DNA of 64,000 nt from an uncultured Porphyromonadaceae bacterium. Lineage in GTDB: Bacteria; Bacteroidota; Bacteroidia; Bacteroidales; Muribaculaceae. Where the stretch lies: contig CAMWXJ010000014.1 of NCBI GenBank assembly GCA_947178215.1, positions 1-64,000 on the forward strand, written 5' to 3'. The notes below the pieces were generated by a model. That model saw only the letters and a list, made by a program, of their open reading frames with translations, had not been told where the DNA came from and did no database searches. The translations under genes were made by a program, and so were the position numbers. Shown here one piece after another: positions 3,750 through 54,190 of the stretch (within the stretch, counting starts at the first letter, position 1; every line of letters begins with the position of its first letter).

Positions 3750-4595
3750 TTACTGGCAAGTTTTACCGTCAGGATGCCAGTAGTCTGCCAGGCGAGCCTT
3801 TTTGCGGTCGTTTCGGATTAATCTGAATGCGTAAGTTGTATTTTCAGTTTCGTATCGATCAAATATGATGTCTGAATAGCCAAAGTTGGTCAAGATACCT
3901 ATTTTATCTCCTCTGCGAGTCATAAAGAACGTGGTCGTCTCATCTTCGGCCATCAACTCATCCTCATATATCTCATCGGCAATCTGGGGCATAAGAGTCT
4001 CAAGCAAGGGTAAACAACCCTTATATGGCTTTATGCGTAGAAAGGGATAGCTGACCGACAACGCACCCCATTTCTTTGTGTCTGCGTCCTGCACGAAAAA
4101 TAGTTTCCTTTCCCATCGTTCTGGAATTATTGCACTGTAGACGAAATCTGTCATCAAAACGGGGGGATTGGTTAGTGAAACCAATGCCCATGCTTCACCA
4201 TTCGAGACCGGGATAAAAGAAGGCTTATTGTTTATCGCGTCAAATTGAGTAAAGATATCTGCAAACGAATCTGGTAATAAAGGCTCTCCGGACGGGGAGA
4301 TAAGTCCGACGAACGTATCATCCCCCGTCTTTTGAGGTCGCCAATCATATCGAGTATGATAAACCTCCAGTTGGCGTAATTTATTGCGGGATTCCTTATC
4401 TGTGCAACCATAGAGCTTATTTGCTATCTCTTGTAAACGCATATATTCCCGCGCATCATCTGTGGTCGGAATAATCAATGGATTATTATTGTGATAGCAC
4501 ACTCGCCAATAATTTAGGTGCTCGTAATAATCCTTCTGCCCGGTCTCTGACGTTATCGGATATACTTTTCGACCATATGGGTCTATACTGCTCAT
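3750..4595 (-). CDS. WG-repeat-like protein of unknown function
   Basis: A 281-residue protein without signal peptide or membrane segment. Residues from about 95 on show a loose repeat of about 40-50 residues typical of WG-repeat proteins: VGLISPSGEPLLPDSFADI, then WALVSL, then KKWGALSVSYPFLRIKPY, then DKIGILTNFGYSDIIFDRY. Each unit is a beta hairpin followed by a short polar turn. The N-terminal 90 residues are aromatic and charged and resemble nothing I recognise. WG-repeat proteins are common in Bacteroidota accessory regions, often as binding modules of unclear role. The gene is AT-rich and lies downstream of the orphan FtsZ-domain gene on the same strand, with a hairpin between them. Function unknown. 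Confidence 0.65.
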   Translation of the reverse strand: MSSIDPYGRKVYPITSETGQKDYYEHLNYWRVCYHNNNPLIIPTTDDAREYMRLQEIANKLYGCTDKESRNKLRQLEVYHTRYDWRPQKTGDDTFVGLISPSGEPLLPDSFADIFTQFDAINNKPSFIPVSNGEAWALVSLTNPPVLMTDFVYSAIIPERWERKLFFVQDADTKKWGALSVSYPFLRIKPYKGCLPLLETLMPQIADEIYEDELMAEDETTTFFMTRRGDKIGILTNFGYSDIIFDRYETENTTYAFRLIRNDRKKARLADYWHPDGKTCQ

Positions 4596-4659
4596 GTTGG
4601 AATTTCTAAGAATTGTAAAAGTGATTGCATCTTTCGAGAGTCCGTTTTTAGTGACAATA

Positions 4660-4686
4660 AACGTGAATCGCCGTTTAATTCACGTT
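4660..4686 (-). terminator. Hairpin downstream of the FtsZ-domain gene
   Basis: A perfect 9 bp inverted repeat, AACGTGAAT (4660-4668) and ATTCACGTT (4678-4686), with a 9-base loop. It lies about 90 bases after the stop of the minus-strand FtsZ-domain gene. The sequence after it on the minus strand has no long T-run, so it could also be an operator-type palindrome. Confidence 0.45.
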
Positions 4687-4775
4687 GTAATTCTTCCGGC
4701 AATCAATCACATTAATGCTGCTTCTGCTTGGTAAACTTATACGCAGAATCACCTGCGATAGCTCCCAATATAGGG

Positions 4776-5270
4776 CTATTTACTTGCTGCTATTAATGAA
4801 ACTTTTACTTGCTCTCCACTCAATGACTCATCGTAGGCGCACCCCCAGCATATATCTATGTTTGAGGGAATGCTTTCGATATAATCAATCATTAACTTAA
4901 TTTCAGCCATTGGCGATTGCGAATTCTTTGACATCCATATATTGAACAATAGTTTGGATGTGTTTTCAGTCTCAATCGGTAATTTGTCGATAGCTACCTT
5001 TAGTGCATTAGCAATGCATCCCTCACCATCTGCCGTGCCGACTACAACATAATTGACAGTCTCCTTTGAAAGTGTGCTCATTACATCATCAACGCTCAGA
5101 TTTAAAATTCCAAAAGTGTTAACTATTCTGTCAATCTCGGCAGTTTCACCGATTATTGTATAATTCTCATACGGTAATTTAACATATGGAACTTTAAAAG
5201 GCGTAAAGTCAGAGTCATCAAATAATTCTGTGGGTCTTTTATTGCCTATGCTATTATTATTTTCTTCCAT
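4776..5270 (-). CDS. Stand-alone FtsZ C-terminal-domain protein
   Basis: A 164-residue cytoplasmic protein. Residues from about 50 to the end align with the C-terminal half of Bacteroidota FtsZ as I know it: NTFGILNLSVDDVMSTL corresponds to the T7-loop region usually read as INLDFADV. VVVGTADGEGCIANALKVA corresponds to the strand-helix with GxGEGEDRV, and ICWGCAYDESLSGEQVKVSL to the final strands usually read as VIWGVAEDNSLEKKVKVTIL. The N-terminal GTP-binding domain and the tubulin signature GGGTGTG are absent, replaced by about 50 residues with acidic and aromatic character. In the T7 loop the first catalytic Asp is Ser while the second Asp is kept. Such a piece could dock on the exposed end of an FtsZ filament but could not bind or hydrolyse GTP. 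Its role as a filament cap or regulator is inference. The gene is AT-rich like its neighbours, which suggests acquisition. Confidence 0.7.
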   Translation of the reverse strand: MEENNNSIGNKRPTELFDDSDFTPFKVPYVKLPYENYTIIGETAEIDRIVNTFGILNLSVDDVMSTLSKETVNYVVVGTADGEGCIANALKVAIDKLPIETENTSKLLFNIWMSKNSQSPMAEIKLMIDYIESIPSNIDICWGCAYDESLSGEQVKVSLIAASK

Positions 5271-5481: not shown

Positions 5482-6954
5482 TTACTTCTTCTTAAGGTTA
5501 AGACTGGCTTGCATTAGTTTAAGCACACATTCTCCTCGGAGAATATCTAACTCATTCTTTAACTTAGGGATTAAAGGAAGCAATTGTTCATTTACAACCT
5601 CGGTATTTTTGAAAAGCTGTTTGCTTATCTTACCGAAATTAGATGGTTTGATATCAAGCTGTTTTTGTTTTGCATACTTCTTGATAATTTCGCTCATGAC
5701 ATTAAGAGCTGGCAGATTAGCAAGGTTTGTAGAGAGAACACTCGCCATTAACGGGGTATGGTCTATGTGGATATCTTGCAGGCGTTTAGCTTGCATAGGA
5801 ATAGATGCATCACCCTCATGCATAGTCTCTGTAAAGACTTTGTGCTCATCACAGCATCCCTCTAAAAGTAGGTTGACAGATCCTTCGTTAGGATTGATTA
5901 TAATCTCCTTAATCTTGGATAATGGATATTCTCCATCTGCTGTGATAACAAGAATGGAATCAACATAATCTTTAAACCATTCGTTAAGCCAGTCGGCATC
6001 ATTGTTGTAGATGTCTTTTCTCTTGGCTTCGCGTTGGCTGTAGTTGAAGAGTTTGCATATCATTCCGATAGGATAGAATATATCCTTTTGGTTGCTCATT
6101 CGATTCTGAGTCTTAAGTCGGAAGATAAAATTCTGCTTAATATCCGATATAGGATAAGTCAGAGTTCCTGATGTCTTATCATTGCTGTCACCATCAAATT
6201 GCGTCATCAAGTCTACGCCAAAGGCTTCCACATTGTTAAGCTCTTCCTCATCTGGCAATTCTTCCAGGTCATCTTGCAGGAAGAGTATATATTTTCTCAA
6301 GGCGGATCTATAGTTGTTAAAGTCTTTCTTCTCAGACTCATCTGTCTCGCTTGATAGCATATGCTCTGAAACTTTTTCTTCAACTTTATCAAGTAGTTTC
6401 AAGGCGACCGCAGTGTTTCCCTCTTTCAATAGGTCAGATATCAGATCCAGCGCATAGGCTCCATCAGATTTTCTCGTTACCTTGTGGCGCAGAGTTTTGA
6501 GATAGGAAACATATGAGTTGGCTGAACCTTGTGTCATTCCGCCACACCAGCGCATCCATTCGCGGAAATCAGCTGTTTTGTAGAGCATAACATCTCCGAT
6601 ATTCGGCGTCGTTTTATCCGATTCTGTCGTTTCTGCGTTATTGGGAACTACACCATCTGCCATCTCACTATGCATAAATTCGATGTATTGAGTGAGTGCA
6701 TTCTTCAGAGACTGAGTTCCTGTGTATGGATTACCATCAATCTCTATCTTATGAAGAGGGATACGTTTATTAGATTCATCACTCTTTGTATAGGTGAATA
6801 CATTCAAAAGCATCTGAATCGAGCCATCTTCAAATCTGGAATCCAGCTCAGGATAAGCTTCTTCAATTCTCTTTACCCTGGAGACTACCGTTCGGGCGGA
6901 ATTCTCCTGTTGGCCATTTCCTACCAACCAGTTAAAAAAATCTGTTTCTTTCAT
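5482..6954 (-). CDS. Unknown 490-residue protein with two integrase-SAM-like helical modules
   Basis: No family is recognised with certainty. The N-terminal half contains what looks like a duplicated helical module. Copy one (about residues 5-95) begins FFNWLVGNGQQENSARTVVS and ends with a helix reading LKNALTQYIEFM. Copy two (about 127-233) begins FREWMRWCGGMTQGSANSYV and ends NNYRSALRKYILFL. The pattern, an F-x-W-L helix followed by a T/S-A-x-x-Y/V-V-S helix and then an R-x-A-L-x-x-Y-I-x-F-L/M helix, recalls the SAM-like core-binding domain of tyrosine recombinases. No catalytic recombinase domain follows. The C-terminal half (about 270-490) has NFIFRLKTQNRMSNQKDIFY and a long charged helical tail. 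It is AT-rich and has its own promoter at 6987-7016. Possible roles as a DNA-binding or defence-associated protein are inference. Confidence 0.6.
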   Translation of the reverse strand: MKETDFFNWLVGNGQQENSARTVVSRVKRIEEAYPELDSRFEDGSIQMLLNVFTYTKSDESNKRIPLHKIEIDGNPYTGTQSLKNALTQYIEFMHSEMADGVVPNNAETTESDKTTPNIGDVMLYKTADFREWMRWCGGMTQGSANSYVSYLKTLRHKVTRKSDGAYALDLISDLLKEGNTAVALKLLDKVEEKVSEHMLSSETDESEKKDFNNYRSALRKYILFLQDDLEELPDEEELNNVEAFGVDLMTQFDGDSNDKTSGTLTYPISDIKQNFIFRLKTQNRMSNQKDIFYPIGMICKLFNYSQREAKRKDIYNNDADWLNEWFKDYVDSILVITADGEYPLSKIKEIIINPNEGSVNLLLEGCCDEHKVFTETMHEGDASIPMQAKRLQDIHIDHTPLMASVLSTNLANLPALNVMSEIIKKYAKQKQLDIKPSNFGKISKQLFKNTEVVNEQLLPLIPKLKNELDILRGECVLKLMQASLNLKKK

Positions 6955-11286: not shown

Positions 11287-12101
11287 GATTGGCTGAGAGT
11301 GTGGCAGTTGAGGCGGCGACGAACAGGATCGTGCATCCAGCCCCATTTGTTGAAATAACGCACCGTGTTGGTGATGTGGACGCCGAGCATTCGGCCGAAG
11401 CGCCGCGATGCTGCCGCATGGGCGTGTACAGCCTCGAACTGAGGTGCATAGAGCACCTTCCATTTACCCGTAGCGGCTATGCGGCGACTCAGGTCAATAT
11501 CCTCGGGATACATGAAGAAGAGTTCGTCGAAGAGACCTGTGTCGCGCAGGGTGGCTGTGCGAAGTAGCATGAAGCTCCCTTGAACGTAAGCACATTCCAA
11601 CTCTCGTCCGCGGTCGTGGGCGCGCAACTCATAGCGGTCCATGCGGCGTCTTACCAGTCGGCGGGGGAGAAATCTGTGCGCGATAAGGTCGAAAGGGGAG
11701 GGAACGAGCCGCACGGTGTACTGGTCGAGGCCAGAGGGATAACGGAGCCGTGGATGGAGTAGCCCCACGTTGCAGTGGGTCTCCATGTAGTCGACGGCCC
11801 GGCGCAACATGGAGGGACTGAATGACACGTCGGCATTGACTACCAGGTGATAGCCGGCCCCCTCGGCAATGGCACTGCGCAGAGCGATGTTGTGAGCCGA
11901 GCCGTAGCCGATGTTTGCCGATTCGCGGTAAACTACCCGCTGCCCTGCAGCGCAATATCCGGCGCAACGGGCAGCAGTGGCGCTGTCGGCCGAGTTGTCG
12001 ATGACCCAGACGGTCGAGGCTTCGGCGAGCGAAGCCACACAACTGTCAAGGTCGGAGACCGGCGTATGATAGGTTACTATTGATGCTGTGATAGTGGCCA
12101 T
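11283..12101 (-). CDS. Family 2 glycosyltransferase (rhamnosyltransferase type)
   Basis: A 272-residue GT-A protein. It opens ITASIVTYHTPVSDLDSCV, the nucleotide-binding start of GT2 enzymes. ESANIGYGSAHNIAL and VVNADVSFSPSML follow, the latter with the DxD-equivalent NAD. FDELFFMYPEDIDLSRRI is the catalytic ED motif region. There is no membrane span. The layout is that of WbbL-type enzymes that add a deoxy sugar to a lipid-linked or LPS acceptor; the exact sugar is not predictable. The stop codon overlaps the ATG of the LPS permease, which suggests a shared role in surface-glycan production. A promoter sits at 12129-12160. Confidence 0.88.
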   Translation of the reverse strand: MATITASIVTYHTPVSDLDSCVASLAEASTVWVIDNSADSATAARCAGYCAAGQRVVYRESANIGYGSAHNIALRSAIAEGAGYHLVVNADVSFSPSMLRRAVDYMETHCNVGLLHPRLRYPSGLDQYTVRLVPSPFDLIAHRFLPRRLVRRRMDRYELRAHDRGRELECAYVQGSFMLLRTATLRDTGLFDELFFMYPEDIDLSRRIAATGKWKVLYAPQFEAVHAHAAASRRFGRMLGVHITNTVRYFNKWGWMHDPVRRRLNCHTLSQS

Positions 12102-50271: not shown

Positions 50272-51141
50272 ATGCCGACAAAGCTGCTCGTCGCCGATTG
50301 CGGTGCCACCTCCGGAAAGTGGGCCTACATAGACCGCACATCAGGGAGTGTGGTCAGGTTCCGCACAGGACCGGTCAATGCCTCGCTCCACGACATCGGG
50401 CGCATTGCTGAAGAGATGGCTCGGGCGATAGAGCAGTGTCCCGCTCCCCCGTCGGCTATATGTATATATGCCGCGGGGGCAGTCGGGGAGGGTAAATCGT
50501 TGCTTGTAGAAACGGCCACGGCGGTATCGGGACTTGATCCAGGTCATATTACAGTAGATGACGACCTCACCGGCGCGGCCCGCGCTCTTCTGGGCGACAG
50601 GCCGGGCATAGTGTGCATACTTGGCACCGGAAGTAACTCGTGTCTTTGGGATGGCCGCGGAATCACGCGCCACATACGCCCTATGGGTTATATATTGGGC
50701 GACGAGGGGTCAGGGGCGGCGCTTGGCGCCGCTTTGCTGCGGGCTGCCTTGCGCGATCTCTTGCCCGACGACTTGAAAGCGGATTGGGAGGCCGACTATC
50801 CGGGTTTGGACTATGCCTCTGTTGTGGGAGCCGTGTATCGCCATCACAAGGGGAGCGGCTACATAGCCTCGTTTGTGCCTTTTATTAAGAAACATATCGG
50901 ACATCCCGCCATACAGCGGATAGTGACGGATGAGCTGGGGCGTTTTATCGTCAATGTATTGTCGGCCTATCCCGAGGCGCGTGAGGTCAATCCGTGCTAT
51001 ACCGGTGGCATCGCGTCGACATTCGAGGCGCAACTGCGTGTGGCCTCGAATGAGCGCGGTATAGGAGTGGGACTCGTCGCAGCCAATCCGCTTGACATGC
51101 TGATAGAGCGTATTATGGAGGAGGGGACTGAAAAAGCGTGA
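50272..51141 (+). CDS. BadF/BcrA-type ATPase; N-acetylglucosamine-kinase-like
   Basis: A 289-residue protein of the ASKHA fold. The start is the ATG at 50272 (MPTKLLVADCGATSGKWAYI); the frame continues upstream but the phosphate-1 motif is right at this start. Further motifs: VDDDLTGAARALLGDRPGIV, CILGTGSNSCLWDGRG with phosphate-2, and YILGDEGSGAALGAALLRAA. The pattern matches bacterial N-acetylglucosamine or N-acetylmuramate kinase-like proteins. It would phosphorylate an amino sugar, perhaps from cell-wall recycling; this is inference. Confidence 0.85.
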   Translation: MPTKLLVADCGATSGKWAYIDRTSGSVVRFRTGPVNASLHDIGRIAEEMARAIEQCPAPPSAICIYAAGAVGEGKSLLVETATAVSGLDPGHITVDDDLTGAARALLGDRPGIVCILGTGSNSCLWDGRGITRHIRPMGYILGDEGSGAALGAALLRAALRDLLPDDLKADWEADYPGLDYASVVGAVYRHHKGSGYIASFVPFIKKHIGHPAIQRIVTDELGRFIVNVLSAYPEAREVNPCYTGGIASTFEAQLRVASNERGIGVGLVAANPLDMLIERIMEEGTEKA

Positions 51142-51158
51142 AAAAGGGTAGCGGATGC

Positions 51159-51189
51159 TTGGCGGCAGTCATAAAAATGGTTATTTTTG
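51159..51189 (+). promoter_or_regulatory. serB promoter
   Basis: TTG (51159-51161), 20 bases, then TATTTTTG (51182-51189). It lies about 45 bases before the serB ATG at 51234. Confidence 0.65.
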
Positions 51190-51233
51190 CGGTTGACAAC
51201 CATGTCATCCTACATCACACTTCATAAAATACC

Positions 51234-52454
51234 ATGACTGAACTGATACTGATTAATATATCAGGCAAAGACCATTCCGGCGTCACGGCGGCTCTGACCG
51301 CTATCCTGGCCAAATACAATGCCGAGATTCTTGATATCGGCCAGAGCAACATCCATCACATACTGTCGCTCGGCTTCCTCATCAAGACCGACAACACGCA
51401 GAGTGGCGACATAATGAAGGAGATACTCTTCAAGAGCTACGACCTTAATGTCAACGTCGGCTTCCAGCCTGTAAGCATAGATTCGTACGATGACTGGGTG
51501 GGACGTCAGGGACGCACAAGGTGGATTATCACCGTACTCGGGCGCAAGCTTGACGCGAGCCATATTGCCGAGGTGAGTCGTGTAGTGGCCGAGCAGAAGC
51601 TTAACATTGACGCTATACGCCGTCTTACAGGCCGACTTCCGCTTGATGCGACTGAGGCTACGGACACCTCTAAGCAGTGCGTCGAATTTTCGGTGCGCGG
51701 CAATCCTATCGACAAATCGGCGATGCAGGACGCTTTTATGCGGCTTGCGAAAAAAGGTGAGGTCGATGTGTCGCTTCAAGAAGACAACATGTTCCGTCGC
51801 TGTCGACGCCTCATCTGCTTTGACATGGACTCGACGCTGATAGGTACCGAAGTTATTGACGAGCTGGCCGAACGCGCCGGAGTGGGCGACCGGGTGCGTG
51901 CTATCACAGAACGCGCCATGCGCGGCGAGATTGACTTCTGCGAGAGTTTCCGTGAGCGCTGCGCCTTGCTCAAGGGGCTTGACGTGAGTGTGATGCAGGA
52001 TATTGCCGAGAATCTGCCAATAACGGAGGGCCTCGACCGCCTTATGACGGTGCTCAAACGCACAGGCTACAAGACCGCGATTCTCTCAGGTGGCTTCACC
52101 TATTTCGGCAACTACCTCAAACGCCGATTCGGTTTCGACTATGTGTATGCCAACGAGCTTGAAATCGACGATACCGGGCATCTGACAGGCCGCTCGCTCG
52201 GCGAGGTAGTCGACGGCAAGCGCAAAGCCGAGTTGCTGAAAGTAATGGCTCAGGTGGAGCAGGTAGATATACAGCAGACAGTTGCCGTGGGAGACGGAGC
52301 TAACGACCTGCCCATGCTTTCTACCGCCGGCCTCGGCATCGCGTTCCATGCCAAGCCGAAAGTCAAGGCTGCCGCCGACCAGAATCTGTCGACTATCGGA
52401 CTCGACGGTATTCTCTATTTCCTCGGCTTTAAAGACAGTCTTATACAGGCGTGA
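51234..52454 (+). CDS. serB: Phosphoserine phosphatase with N-terminal ACT domains
   Basis: A 406-residue enzyme. Residues about 1-75 and 95-180 are two ACT domains (LILINISGKDHSGVTAALTA and RWIITVLGRKLDASHIAEVS). The HAD phosphatase domain begins with FDMDSTLIGTEVIDE, nucleophile Asp197 and acid Asp199. It continues with KTAILSGGFTYFGNYL and VAVGDGANDLPML. It makes serine from phosphoserine; the ACT domains probably sense serine or another amino acid. glyA, which uses serine, lies 2.8 kb downstream on the same strand. Confidence 0.95.
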   Translation: MTELILINISGKDHSGVTAALTAILAKYNAEILDIGQSNIHHILSLGFLIKTDNTQSGDIMKEILFKSYDLNVNVGFQPVSIDSYDDWVGRQGRTRWIITVLGRKLDASHIAEVSRVVAEQKLNIDAIRRLTGRLPLDATEATDTSKQCVEFSVRGNPIDKSAMQDAFMRLAKKGEVDVSLQEDNMFRRCRRLICFDMDSTLIGTEVIDELAERAGVGDRVRAITERAMRGEIDFCESFRERCALLKGLDVSVMQDIAENLPITEGLDRLMTVLKRTGYKTAILSGGFTYFGNYLKRRFGFDYVYANELEIDDTGHLTGRSLGEVVDGKRKAELLKVMAQVEQVDIQQTVAVGDGANDLPMLSTAGLGIAFHAKPKVKAAADQNLSTIGLDGILYFLGFKDSLIQA

Positions 52455-52509
52455 CGCCTATTTGCCAACATTTACGTCGGTCGAAGCATTCATTTCCGAT
52501 TAAATTTAG

Positions 52510-52546
52510 TAATTTTGCGGTGTCACCTCCGTGGAGGCGACACCGC
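52510..52546 (+). promoter_or_regulatory. -7 element overlapped with a hairpin between serB and the barrel gene
   Basis: TAATTTTG (52510-52517) fits the -7 element; no clear -33 is present. Immediately after it a hairpin runs GCGGTGTC (52517-52524) to GACACCGC (52539-52546). The loop contains a further CTCC/GGAG pairing and AATTTTG follows. It may be the serB terminator, or a 5'-end stem-loop of the barrel transcript, or both. Confidence 0.55.
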
Positions 52547-52579
52547 AATTTTGTTTCATCACTACAACAAATTATTACT

Positions 52580-53194
52580 TTGAAACGCATTACAATCCTT
52601 CTGTTCGCTGCCATTATGGCGGTGGCCGGAGCTATTCAGTCTTCAGCACAGTTCCGTATCGGTCCCAAAGTAGGTGTGGCGGTCAATTCGCTCCATTTCA
52701 ACCGAAGCACATTCGATTCCGAGAATCGCGCAGGTTTTACCGGCGGCCTTATGGTGGAATTTACTGTGCCCCTGATAGGTGTAGGCCTTGATGCGTCGGC
52801 GCTGTATGTGCGTCGCAACGGTAATGCTTATTACGACGGCACACAGAACGTAGGCTTCAACGGCGAGATGAACGTGAACCGCGATTATATCGCCATCCCG
52901 GTCAACTTCAAGTGGAAGCTCAAACTTCCGCTCGTGCGCCCGTTCATCACTACCGGTCCCGAATTCGCTTTCCTTACCTCACGTAAGTCGGTCAACAATG
53001 CATTCCGCAACAAGTCGGTAGACTACTCGTGGAATTTCGGCGCCGGCCTTGAAATTCTCAGTCATATTCAGGTAGCAGCTTCCTACGGTATAGGCATTAA
53101 CAAGGCCCTGCGCGACATAGGTGCGGCAGAGAACGCCTACGACGTGAGCGCCAATGACCGTACCTGGGTAATCACCCTCGCCTATCTCTTCTGA
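52580..53194 (+). CDS. Outer-membrane beta-barrel protein (porin family)
   Basis: The 204-residue form starts at TTG 52580: no ATG gives a signal peptide, and codons from the TTG read KRITILLFAAIMAVAGAIQS then SAQFRIGPKVGVAVNSLHF. Eight or so amphipathic strands follow, with aromatic ends (LGVGLDASALYVRRNG-like turns and VNFKWKLKLPLVRPFITTG) and a terminal Phe. It fits the OmpA-like/PorT small barrels of Bacteroidota. The cargo or role is unknown. A 5' hairpin and -7 element lie ahead at 52510-52546. Confidence 0.78.
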   Translation: MKRITILLFAAIMAVAGAIQSSAQFRIGPKVGVAVNSLHFNRSTFDSENRAGFTGGLMVEFTVPLIGVGLDASALYVRRNGNAYYDGTQNVGFNGEMNVNRDYIAIPVNFKWKLKLPLVRPFITTGPEFAFLTSRKSVNNAFRNKSVDYSWNFGAGLEILSHIQVAASYGIGINKALRDIGAAENAYDVSANDRTWVITLAYLF

Positions 53195-53251
53195 CGAATC
53201 AGCGACATCAATCGTTTCACCGCATATTTCAGCCCCTCAAACCATTCAGAT

Positions 53252-54190
53252 ATGAGCAACCGTTCGCTTGTAAGCATCGACGACATATCGCGCGACGAGC
53301 TACTCGATTTGCTGGAGCATGCCCGCTACTTTGAAGAGCACCCCAATCACAAAGTGCTCGACGGCAAGGTGGTGGCGACGCTCTTTTTCGAACCCTCGAC
53401 CCGCACGCGCCTCAGTTTCGAGACCGCAGTCAACCGTCTTGGCGGCCGTGTAATAGGTTTTTCAGACCCCGCTGCGACATCGACATCAAAAGGCGAGACC
53501 CTGAAAGATACCATAAAAATGGTATCCAACTATGTCGACCTCATCATAATGCGCCACTATCTCGAAGGTGCGGCACGCTATGCTACCGAGGTGTCGGATA
53601 CTCCGGTAATCAACGCCGGTGACGGCGCCAACCAGCATCCGTCGCAGACAATGCTTGACCTCTATTCCATATATAAGACGCAGGGGCGCCTCAACGACCT
53701 AAATATCACGATGGTCGGTGATCTGAAATATGGCCGCACAGTACACTCGCTTCTCATGGCGATGCGATACTTCAACCCCACATTCCATTTTGTAGCGTGC
53801 CCCGAGCTCGCCATGCCTCAGGAGTATAAGGACTTCTGCGACGCCAATGGCATAAAGTATGTGGAACACACCGATTTCTCCCCCGAGGTCATAAATGCCG
53901 CCGACATCCTTTACATGACTCGCGTGCAGCGCGAACGCTTTCAGGACCTTATGGAGTATGAGCGTGTGAAGAACCTTTACACGCTTCACAACGATATGCT
54001 CGTCGACTCCAAGCCCAACTTGCGCGTGCTTCATCCGCTGCCCCGTGTCAACGAGATTGACCGCGATGTCGACGACAACCCCAAAGCATACTATTTCGAG
54101 CAGGCGCGCAACGGCCTCTTCGCCCGTCAGGCCATTATATGTCGCGCCCTCGGCATCGACATTCTCAAACAAGAGTCAGAGAAGAAATGA
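53252..54190 (+). CDS. pyrB: Aspartate carbamoyltransferase catalytic subunit
   Basis: A 312-residue enzyme with the carbamoyl-phosphate site [11 protein letters not shown] (46-56) and the aspartate-side segments [20 protein letters not shown] and [12 protein letters not shown]. It makes N-carbamoyl-aspartate in pyrimidine synthesis. Its stop overlaps the pyrI ATG by four bases (ATGA), so subunits are made together. No leader-peptide attenuator of the enterobacterial type is seen ahead of it. Confidence 0.97.

Follow-up and report, generated by a model that had tools for sequence, protein, structure and literature searches.

A stand-alone FtsZ activation domain and its mobile relatives in Muribaculaceae, with a possible role in the control of cell division

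The window, which is the whole stretch of 64,000 nucleotides analysed here, was found to encode a 164-residue protein that, judged by alignment and predicted fold, is an FtsZ activation domain freed of the GTPase domain and the C-terminal tail. The family to which this orphan belongs is unnamed, and its domain identity is clear: it falls in the FtsZ superfamily and consists of the activation domain only. FtsZ is essential and nearly always intact, and a mobile family that keeps only the activation domain stands out against this background. Where it was measurable (subgroup B, see below), the family was shown to be under mostly purifying selection and to move between genera. Its action may lie in the control of division during conflicts, a reading that we put forward tentatively.

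Domain identity of the orphan protein

The preliminary description of this DNA had read the gene as an orphan FtsZ C-terminal domain of 164 residues whose GTPase half is missing. The alignment with the FtsZ of the same genome, the host-family profile, the profile matches in the PDB and the predicted fold all agreed with this assignment. The product contains WGCAYDESLSGEQVKVSL and NLSVDD, as quoted there, and its homology spans the end of FtsZ helix H7 through the C-terminal domain (CTD). The FtsZ of the same genome aligned with the protein over 161 columns at 27% identity (E 5e-20), and a profile of host-family FtsZ (n = 20) matched it at model positions 199-327 with 70.2 bits (E 2.8e-21); this profile was built from 20 of the 31 loci retained by an exact motif filter, among which L029 is an orphan locus. 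Additionally, TIGR00065 gave 17.5 bits (E 0.002), residues 193-310 of M. tuberculosis FtsZ aligned with the protein (E 0.0011), and an orphan-family profile of 16 members matched residues 196-313 of B. subtilis FtsZ (E 1e-11). When the orphan-family profile was searched against the PDB, only FtsZ chains scored below 1e-5 among the 60 of 65 matches listed.

The lack of a significant match to PF12327 had been named beforehand as grounds against the assignment. Taken alone, Pfam PF12327 indeed gave 14.8 bits (E 0.037), which is below its gathering cut-off of 27, and the FtsZ of the same genome reached just 53 bits against this model; the Pfam score was overruled by the sensitive profiles, the genome's own FtsZ and the fold search. 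A predicted fold unlike the tubulin C-terminal domain had been named as the other such ground; the predicted model resembled the FtsZ C-terminal domain, with pLDDT below 50 in the T7 region.

A GTPase domain with the GGGTGTG motif was absent from the reading frame, as had been claimed: PF00091 gave no match, and the FtsZ alignment begins after the GTPase core, residues 8-22 of the window protein aligning tentatively with the FtsZ stretch directly after that core. A C-terminal linker and a conserved tail peptide were also absent, as the protein stops at the last strand of the domain, whereas host FtsZ proteins run on. Upon comparison with the FtsZ C-terminal domain (PF12327 and TIGR00065), the orphan was thus similar throughout the segment between the end of H7 and the last strand, in predicted fold and in the second Asp of the T7 loop, but it differed in lacking the GTPase domain and the tail, in carrying its own N-terminal motif where half of H7 would be, in having mostly lost the SPLL stretch and the Arg of GExxR, and in scoring under the Pfam cut-off. 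The FtsZl1 family (Makarova and Koonin 2010) likewise belongs to the FtsZ superfamily while departing from the standard arrangement of two domains. The preliminary description knew of no named family for the protein, and we also found none among the Pfam, NCBIfam, PHROGs and PADLOC matches; the literature searched, which reached few subscription papers, contained no stand-alone FtsZ C-terminal domain family.

T7 loop and family-specific motif

In the host FtsZ proteins, the Asn, Asp, Phe and Asp of the T7 loop were invariant (20/20 each). The window copy departs from NxDxxD in that the first Asp is replaced by Ser, while the second is kept, as the preliminary description had noted in calling the loop altered. 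Counted over all 24 orphans, Asn was retained in 10 copies, the first Asp in 19, Phe in none and the second Asp in 23, and the position of Phe was occupied by Lys or Arg in 14 of the 24. The first Asp was lost in the window copy and four others, and both were lost in L048. Because 19 of the 24 copies keep the first Asp, the alteration is not a family trait, and we rejected it as a hallmark; it is confined to a few copies. Among the host-invariant T7 residues, both catalytic Asp were shown by the alignment to be selectively retained in the orphan family. A conserved S9-H10 'bottom' surface across the orphans was also considered and rejected, as no other region varies more within group A (mean entropy 2.12; entropy values were calculated for 23 orphans).

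The orphan family has a motif of its own, approximately YxIxGDxxEIDxI, at the place of the first half of FtsZ helix H7. Within this motif, Gly41 and Glu45 were present in all 24 copies, and Tyr37 was present in all nine copies of group A.

Distribution, phylogeny and horizontal transfer

At E 1e-25 or better, the orphan profile found 24 orphan copies in 22 of the 397 genomes sampled from the host family, distributed over 9 of 30 genera. In samples of the order (393 genomes) and of the phylum (395), it found nothing beyond the window's own copy. When 18 orphan genomes were searched together, the orphans scored 110-194 bits, host FtsZ 63-86 bits and a few degenerate copies lower. Nine copies around that of the window form subgroup A, and the other 15 form subgroup B. 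Named relatives are found in Paramuribaculum sp. (JAIDJW010000148.1), Muribaculaceae bacterium Isolate-036 (Harlan) (RIAY01000009.1) and a Bacteroidales MAG (WFMA01000091.1). The preliminary description had suggested a search for orphan domains with conserved neighbours in other Bacteroidales, and relatives with shared neighbours do occur in other genomes.

A tree built from 58 domains placed the orphans on one side of a 99/99 branch, apart from FtsZ, with bootstrap values that were not fully settled; the orphan side also included the long-branched degenerate copy L089. The tree took in 23 of the 24 orphans (without the truncated L035), four of the five degenerate copies (without the truncated L090) and 11 of the 21 order FtsZ loci found by motif. 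As judged from this tree, the orphan family is essentially of single origin.

Synonymous divergence was compared in four genomes of three genera, which gave six pairs, all of subgroup B, as G173, whose FtsZ was not recovered, was left out. The orphans showed a dS of 0.06-0.31, in comparison with 1.2-2.0 for host FtsZ. The orphan dS is far below that of host FtsZ across genera, and subgroup B has therefore undergone recent horizontal transfer. The dN/dS ratio was 0.19-0.85 in the 11 closest pairs, again all of subgroup B, and was below 0.5 in nine of them, the two highest values occurring at very low dS. The closest pair of subgroup A (L037 and L038) had a dN/dS of 0.19 at a dS of 1.7, and the window copy was saturated for dS in pairwise comparison, so the dN/dS evidence covers its relatives only.

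These values bear on whether the orphan is a functionless, dying fragment of an FtsZ duplicate. Such decay would agree with an internal stop in one relative (L035, genome G159), with a decayed second copy in L033, with the degenerate FtsZ paralogues in L038, L088 and L091, and with the saturated dS of the window copy. The frame is nevertheless intact, most close pairs of subgroup B have a dN/dS well under 1, and the members form one old clade that has its own conserved motif and has recently spread horizontally; we consider this explanation the most improbable of those weighed here.

A phage or plasmid origin was not favoured by the searches. A tblastn search found five phage-collection and three plasmid records, all below 30% identity and within the range of a host FtsZ match; the two annotated plasmid matches were ftsZ, and the other six had no annotation. 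An alignment-based scan revealed no orphan relatives in viral contigs.

Genomic context of the window copy

The features discussed are listed in Table 1.

Table 1. Coordinates of the orphan gene, its neighbours in the window and related FtsZ-derived genes in other loci.
Feature	Position	Strand	Length	Remarks
Orphan FtsZ C-terminal (activation) domain protein	4776..5270	-	164 aa	ATG start; T7 loop NLSVDD at residues 57-62
SAM-like protein	5482..6954	-	490 aa	First ~270 residues of SAM-like family, with a distant resemblance to tyrosine recombinase core-binding domains
Putative degraded 5' remnant of ADP-ribosylglycohydrolase gene	4596..4775	-		Site of the ADP-ribosylglycohydrolase-type gene in L032 and L048
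281-aa protein	3750..4595	-	281 aa	WG repeat look by eye; relatives downstream of orphan in L032, L033 and L048
FtsZ GTPase-domain-only protein	L044:8603-9154		183 aa	
FtsZ GTPase-domain-only protein	L085:5210-5761		183 aa	
FtsZ GTPase-domain-only protein	L086:8583-9104		173 aa	
FtsZ GTPase-domain-only protein	L087:8712-9233		173 aa	
Degenerate FtsZ paralogue	L038:8946-9785			GTPase half broken or unrecognisable; tree branch separate from orphans
Degenerate FtsZ paralogue	L088:7533-8270			As above
Degenerate FtsZ paralogue	L091:1016-1738			As above
FtsK (alpha, motor, gamma) fused to FtsZ C-terminal-like domain	L036:14882-16897		671 aa	Followed by ADP-ribosylglycohydrolase gene
HAD-type domain fused to FtsZ C-terminal-like domain	L041:1071-1937			Swiss-army-knife RNA-repair family via relative in L040

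The window genes for the 281-, 164- and 490-residue proteins are co-oriented. The orphan gene has a GC content of 36%, compared with 47% for the esterase gene to the left and 50% and 60% for the rhodanese and RibBA genes to the right, which agrees with the AT-rich accessory region described earlier. No catalytic recombinase domain was recognised in the 490-residue protein; Phage_int_SAM_5 matched its relative in L037 with 26.2 bits, over the cut-off, and the window protein with 13.9 bits, under it. A SAM-like family gene was located within 4 kb upstream of the orphan in seven of the nine group A loci, as counted with a profile built from the same loci.

The remnant between the orphan and the 281-residue gene aligned with the ADP-ribosylglycohydrolase of L032 with a score of 46, whereas 200 shuffles gave a mean of 18.4 and a maximum of 25; its scores against four other relatives (27, 25, 19 and 25) were not clearly above the shuffles. 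The gene order in L032 and L048 is orphan, ADP-ribosylglycohydrolase type and 281-residue type. The 281-residue protein had no Pfam match over the cut-off, and its predicted model was poor (mean pLDDT 36.8). Searches of both window neighbours with PADLOC, PHROGs, NCBIfam and the PDB revealed nothing useful, and PADLOC had no matches for the orphan either. Within the AT-rich patch of the window, no intact repair or defence gene was recognised with Pfam, NCBIfam, PADLOC or PHROGs. With regard to the tie to a defence or phage function that had been raised at the outset, many relatives have conflict-type genes beside them, but the window copy has none intact beside it.

No second FtsZ_C remnant was detected at the protein level in the intergenic DNA of the window, where only a 27-nt repeat at 74% was found. 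Three regions chosen as flanks by the neighbouring rhodanese gene (L119-L121), for a comparison with an empty site, showed no synteny. At ~51000-54000 of the window, a positive GC skew becomes negative, a change of sign like that at a replication terminus.

Gene neighbourhoods of the relatives

Neighbours were counted within 4 kb of the orphan by similarity to single reference proteins, most of them tested with Pfam (those for the recombinase, 281-residue and MTFEEFK types were not). Each family name was assigned by testing one or two representatives with Pfam and PADLOC, and the references were taken from the same orphan loci in which they were counted, so that only the background count is independent. 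In this background (274 kb, 281 ORFs), the cluster profiles had 50 matches to FtsZ, taken as host FtsZ, one to a recombinase and no others.

In the nine subgroup A loci, we found ADP-ribosylglycohydrolase genes in five, in each case downstream of the orphan (six by the cluster profile, including a divergent gene in L048), the 281-residue type in four (window included), the MTFEEFK type in two, recombinase-like genes in two and a DprA/ShosA-like gene in one; WYL, HAD, metallophosphoesterase and RtcB genes were found within 4 kb in none of the nine. The 15 subgroup B loci contained the DUF6557 type (nine loci), a HAD protein of the Swiss-army-knife RNA-repair family (six, plus one fusion), a WYL regulator (five), a metallophosphoesterase matching PADLOC PDC-S10 (five) and a DprA/ShosA-like gene (two), while ADP-ribosylglycohydrolase, RtcB, DEDDh exonuclease, recombinase-like and MTFEEFK-type genes were each present in one locus. 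PrfH was not found within 4 kb of any of the 24 CTD orphans. When PADLOC was run on 10 proteins of the relatives' loci, five matched (PDC-S10, DEDDh, WYL, ShosA and the FtsK fusion). These family assignments show that repair- or defence-type genes recur beside orphan members, in different sets in the two subgroups. Together with the transfer between genera, the neighbours suggest that bacteria may reuse a piece of the division machine in conflicts, and FtsZ fragments would then join the housekeeping parts known to be reused in this manner.

The Bacteroidales orphan-immunity islands known as rAID are similar in their accessory, co-oriented gene arrays, and a tyrosine-recombinase-like gene was nearby in a few of our loci: recombinase-like genes occurred within 4 kb in three of 24 orphan loci, one being a 75-aa fragment, and in four of 24 by the cluster profile. 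In contrast to rAID, the window locus had no recognised recombinase, and SUKH-type immunity proteins were absent from the matches obtained. A repeat search within four loci revealed no evident intergenic family.

The upstream SAM-like genes of group A and the fusions to FtsK and to a HAD domain raise the question of whether the domain was exapted, keeping its fold but having exchanged FtsZ for partners from its own operon (SAM-like protein, HAD, FtsK fusion). The new conserved N-terminal motif, which stands where FtsZ has half of H7, is consistent with such a change, as is the window copy, in which 14 of the 27 CTD positions invariant in host FtsZ are retained. Exaptation leaves unexplained why the Asp pair is the part of T7 that survived, and we regard it as unlikely.

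Possible mode of action

SulA binds the T7, or bottom, side of FtsZ, and isolated FtsZ domains made in the laboratory interfere with FtsZ assembly. We suggest, as a possible reading, that the orphan is a GTPase-free FtsZ mimic that acts through its T7 side, perhaps as a division brake in a conflict response. Homology and fold, the retention of the T7 Asp pair, the dN/dS ratios, the transfer, the single clade and the neighbours all argue for it to some degree. In this scheme, the orphan would be produced under conflict or damage, its T7 side would dock where the GTP face ('top') is exposed, on FtsZ monomers or at the ends of filaments, and Z-ring assembly would pause while the damage is handled. 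Nothing could add behind a docked orphan because the orphan has no GTP face of its own. In one report, the T7 residues N208, D210 and D213 of S. aureus FtsZ are described as important for assembly, which is impaired by D210N, and incoming monomers are proposed to join the filament through their own GTP-bound top face (PMC8936486). If T7 is needed for assembly and joining proceeds through that face, a partner that consists of the T7 side only could occupy it. That the Asp pair has been kept in transferred copies agrees with a partner that is itself conserved, for example the GTP face of FtsZ. In the window copy, where Ser replaces the first Asp, the cap may be catalytically muted or weaker.

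The orphan would block FtsZ assembly in a manner similar to SulA, MciZ and Gp0.4 of phage T7. MciZ (PMC8936486) and Gp0.4 (PMC13423816) are reported to bind the T7/bottom side of FtsZ, whereas the orphan corresponds to that side and would bind the GTP face. Some neighbours of the relatives appear to point to the repair of toxin damage: ADP-ribosyl hydrolases are described as immunity proteins to ADP-ribosylating toxins (PMC11699363), and RtcB2-PrfH is described as guarding against colicin E3 (PMC9223846), with RtcB adjoining just one of the 24 CTD orphans. Several observations speak against a division brake. At the window locus, nothing of the repair or defence genes was recognised except a remnant, and it is subgroup B that has RNA-repair and WYL neighbours, whereas the window copy is of subgroup A. 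The saturated dS of the window copy and the low pLDDT of its predicted T7 region are further points against the brake; the losses of one or both T7 Asp residues and the Lys or Arg at the Phe position, counted above, count against it as well. The copies fused to FtsK or HAD would suit a simple cap less well.

In place of a brake, the domain might act as a decoy, offering the T7 side of FtsZ to toxins or phage proteins directed at FtsZ and titrating them or, together with its neighbours, sensing them. Gp0.4 is predicted to bind the C-terminal region of FtsZ at the synergy (T7) loop, and the Gp0.4-FtsZ complex is reported to trigger CapRel immunity (PMC13423816); Tri1 is reported to protect from the FtsZ-modifying toxin Tre1, which targets Arg174, by sequestration and ADP-ribose cleavage (PMC7827354). 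The conflict between Tri1 and Tre1 has a parallel in the ADP-ribosylglycohydrolase gene that adjoins the FtsZ-derived gene in group A relatives, with a remnant in the window. Arg174, however, presumably sits in the half of FtsZ that the orphan lacks, which weakens the case for a sponge for Tre1-type arginine ADP-ribosylation, and the host-invariant Arg of the CTD was retained in only two of 23 orphans. A decoy for varied attackers should also diversify at its docking site, whereas the T7 Asp pair was kept across genera. We consider a decoy or sensor doubtful but a close rival of the division brake, which we prefer narrowly; exaptation comes third.

Should such a function be borne out, nature would have supplied a dominant-negative or a decoy for the bacterial division machine. 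The family would then offer an evolution-tested tool for finding out at which face FtsZ is open to blocking, and whether division is controlled by conflicts among bacteria or with phages.

Other FtsZ-derived genes in these genomes

FtsZ GTPase-domain-only proteins were found in four of the 18 orphan genomes searched (L044, L085, L086 and L087; Table 1), and that of L044 matched PF00091 with 58 bits. Their islands carry WYL, RtcB, PrfH or a PDC-S10-type metallophosphoesterase, with RtcB in three of the four loci and PrfH in two. Across the host family, a profile of these proteins found GTPase-only halves in 18 of 397 genomes, a list that consists of 19 matches minus G257 (a full-length FtsZ) and still includes a 66-aa fragment (G215). 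Four of these genomes also had a CTD orphan, compared with 1.0 expected (Fisher p 0.013), both 397-genome family samples being assumed to be identical genomes. In six of eight further loci (L097, L099, L103, L104, L106 and L107), the next gene, for a metallophosphoesterase of similar appearance, overlaps the GTPase-only gene; L102 and L105 had no such overlapping gene after it.

The excess in shared genomes, and a GTPase-only ORF that lies 240 bp from the CTD ORF in G102 (L044), would agree with the orphan being one half of a natural split FtsZ that is partnered by a separate GTPase-only half. At the threshold used, however, 18 of the 22 CTD-orphan genomes, including that of the window, had no GTPase-only half, which weakens an obligate split FtsZ, and we consider this arrangement highly improbable. 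As few CTD-orphan genomes (4/22) share the GTPase-only half, and the islands are similar, both pieces appear to travel alike without forming an obligate pair. More broadly, and with somewhat more reserve than for the division brake, we entertain the view that Muribaculaceae, a gut family, turned FtsZ into a mobile parts kit of free activation domains, GTPase domains and degenerate copies in accessory islands with conflict-type and RNA/ADP-ribose repair genes, sometimes fused to FtsK or HAD. The activation domain might dock through its T7 Asp pair on the GTP face of FtsZ or stand in for FtsZ before attackers, controlling division in the response to toxins or phages.

Several minor observations were made on these genes. 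L103 and L104 (G255:C328 and G200:C68), which carry the GTPase-only half and belong to different genera, were identical over 3111 compared bases, which reflects either very recent transfer or contamination. In L033, a DNA repeat (11874-11947; two 33-nt blocks at 88-91%) that matches the 3' end region of the orphan gene is located upstream of the gene of the 281-residue type; judged by these blocks it is a decayed second orphan copy, with nothing recognisable at the protein level. A large-operon protein in G102 (L092:8336-9406) gave a weak Tubulin GTPase match (24.5 bits, below the cut-off) and was unlike FtsZ. Finally, tandem FtsZ genes were observed in two order genomes, G318 (L133/L148) and G311 (L139/L149), each with two FtsZ_C matches in separate long frames 1.3-1.4 kb apart.
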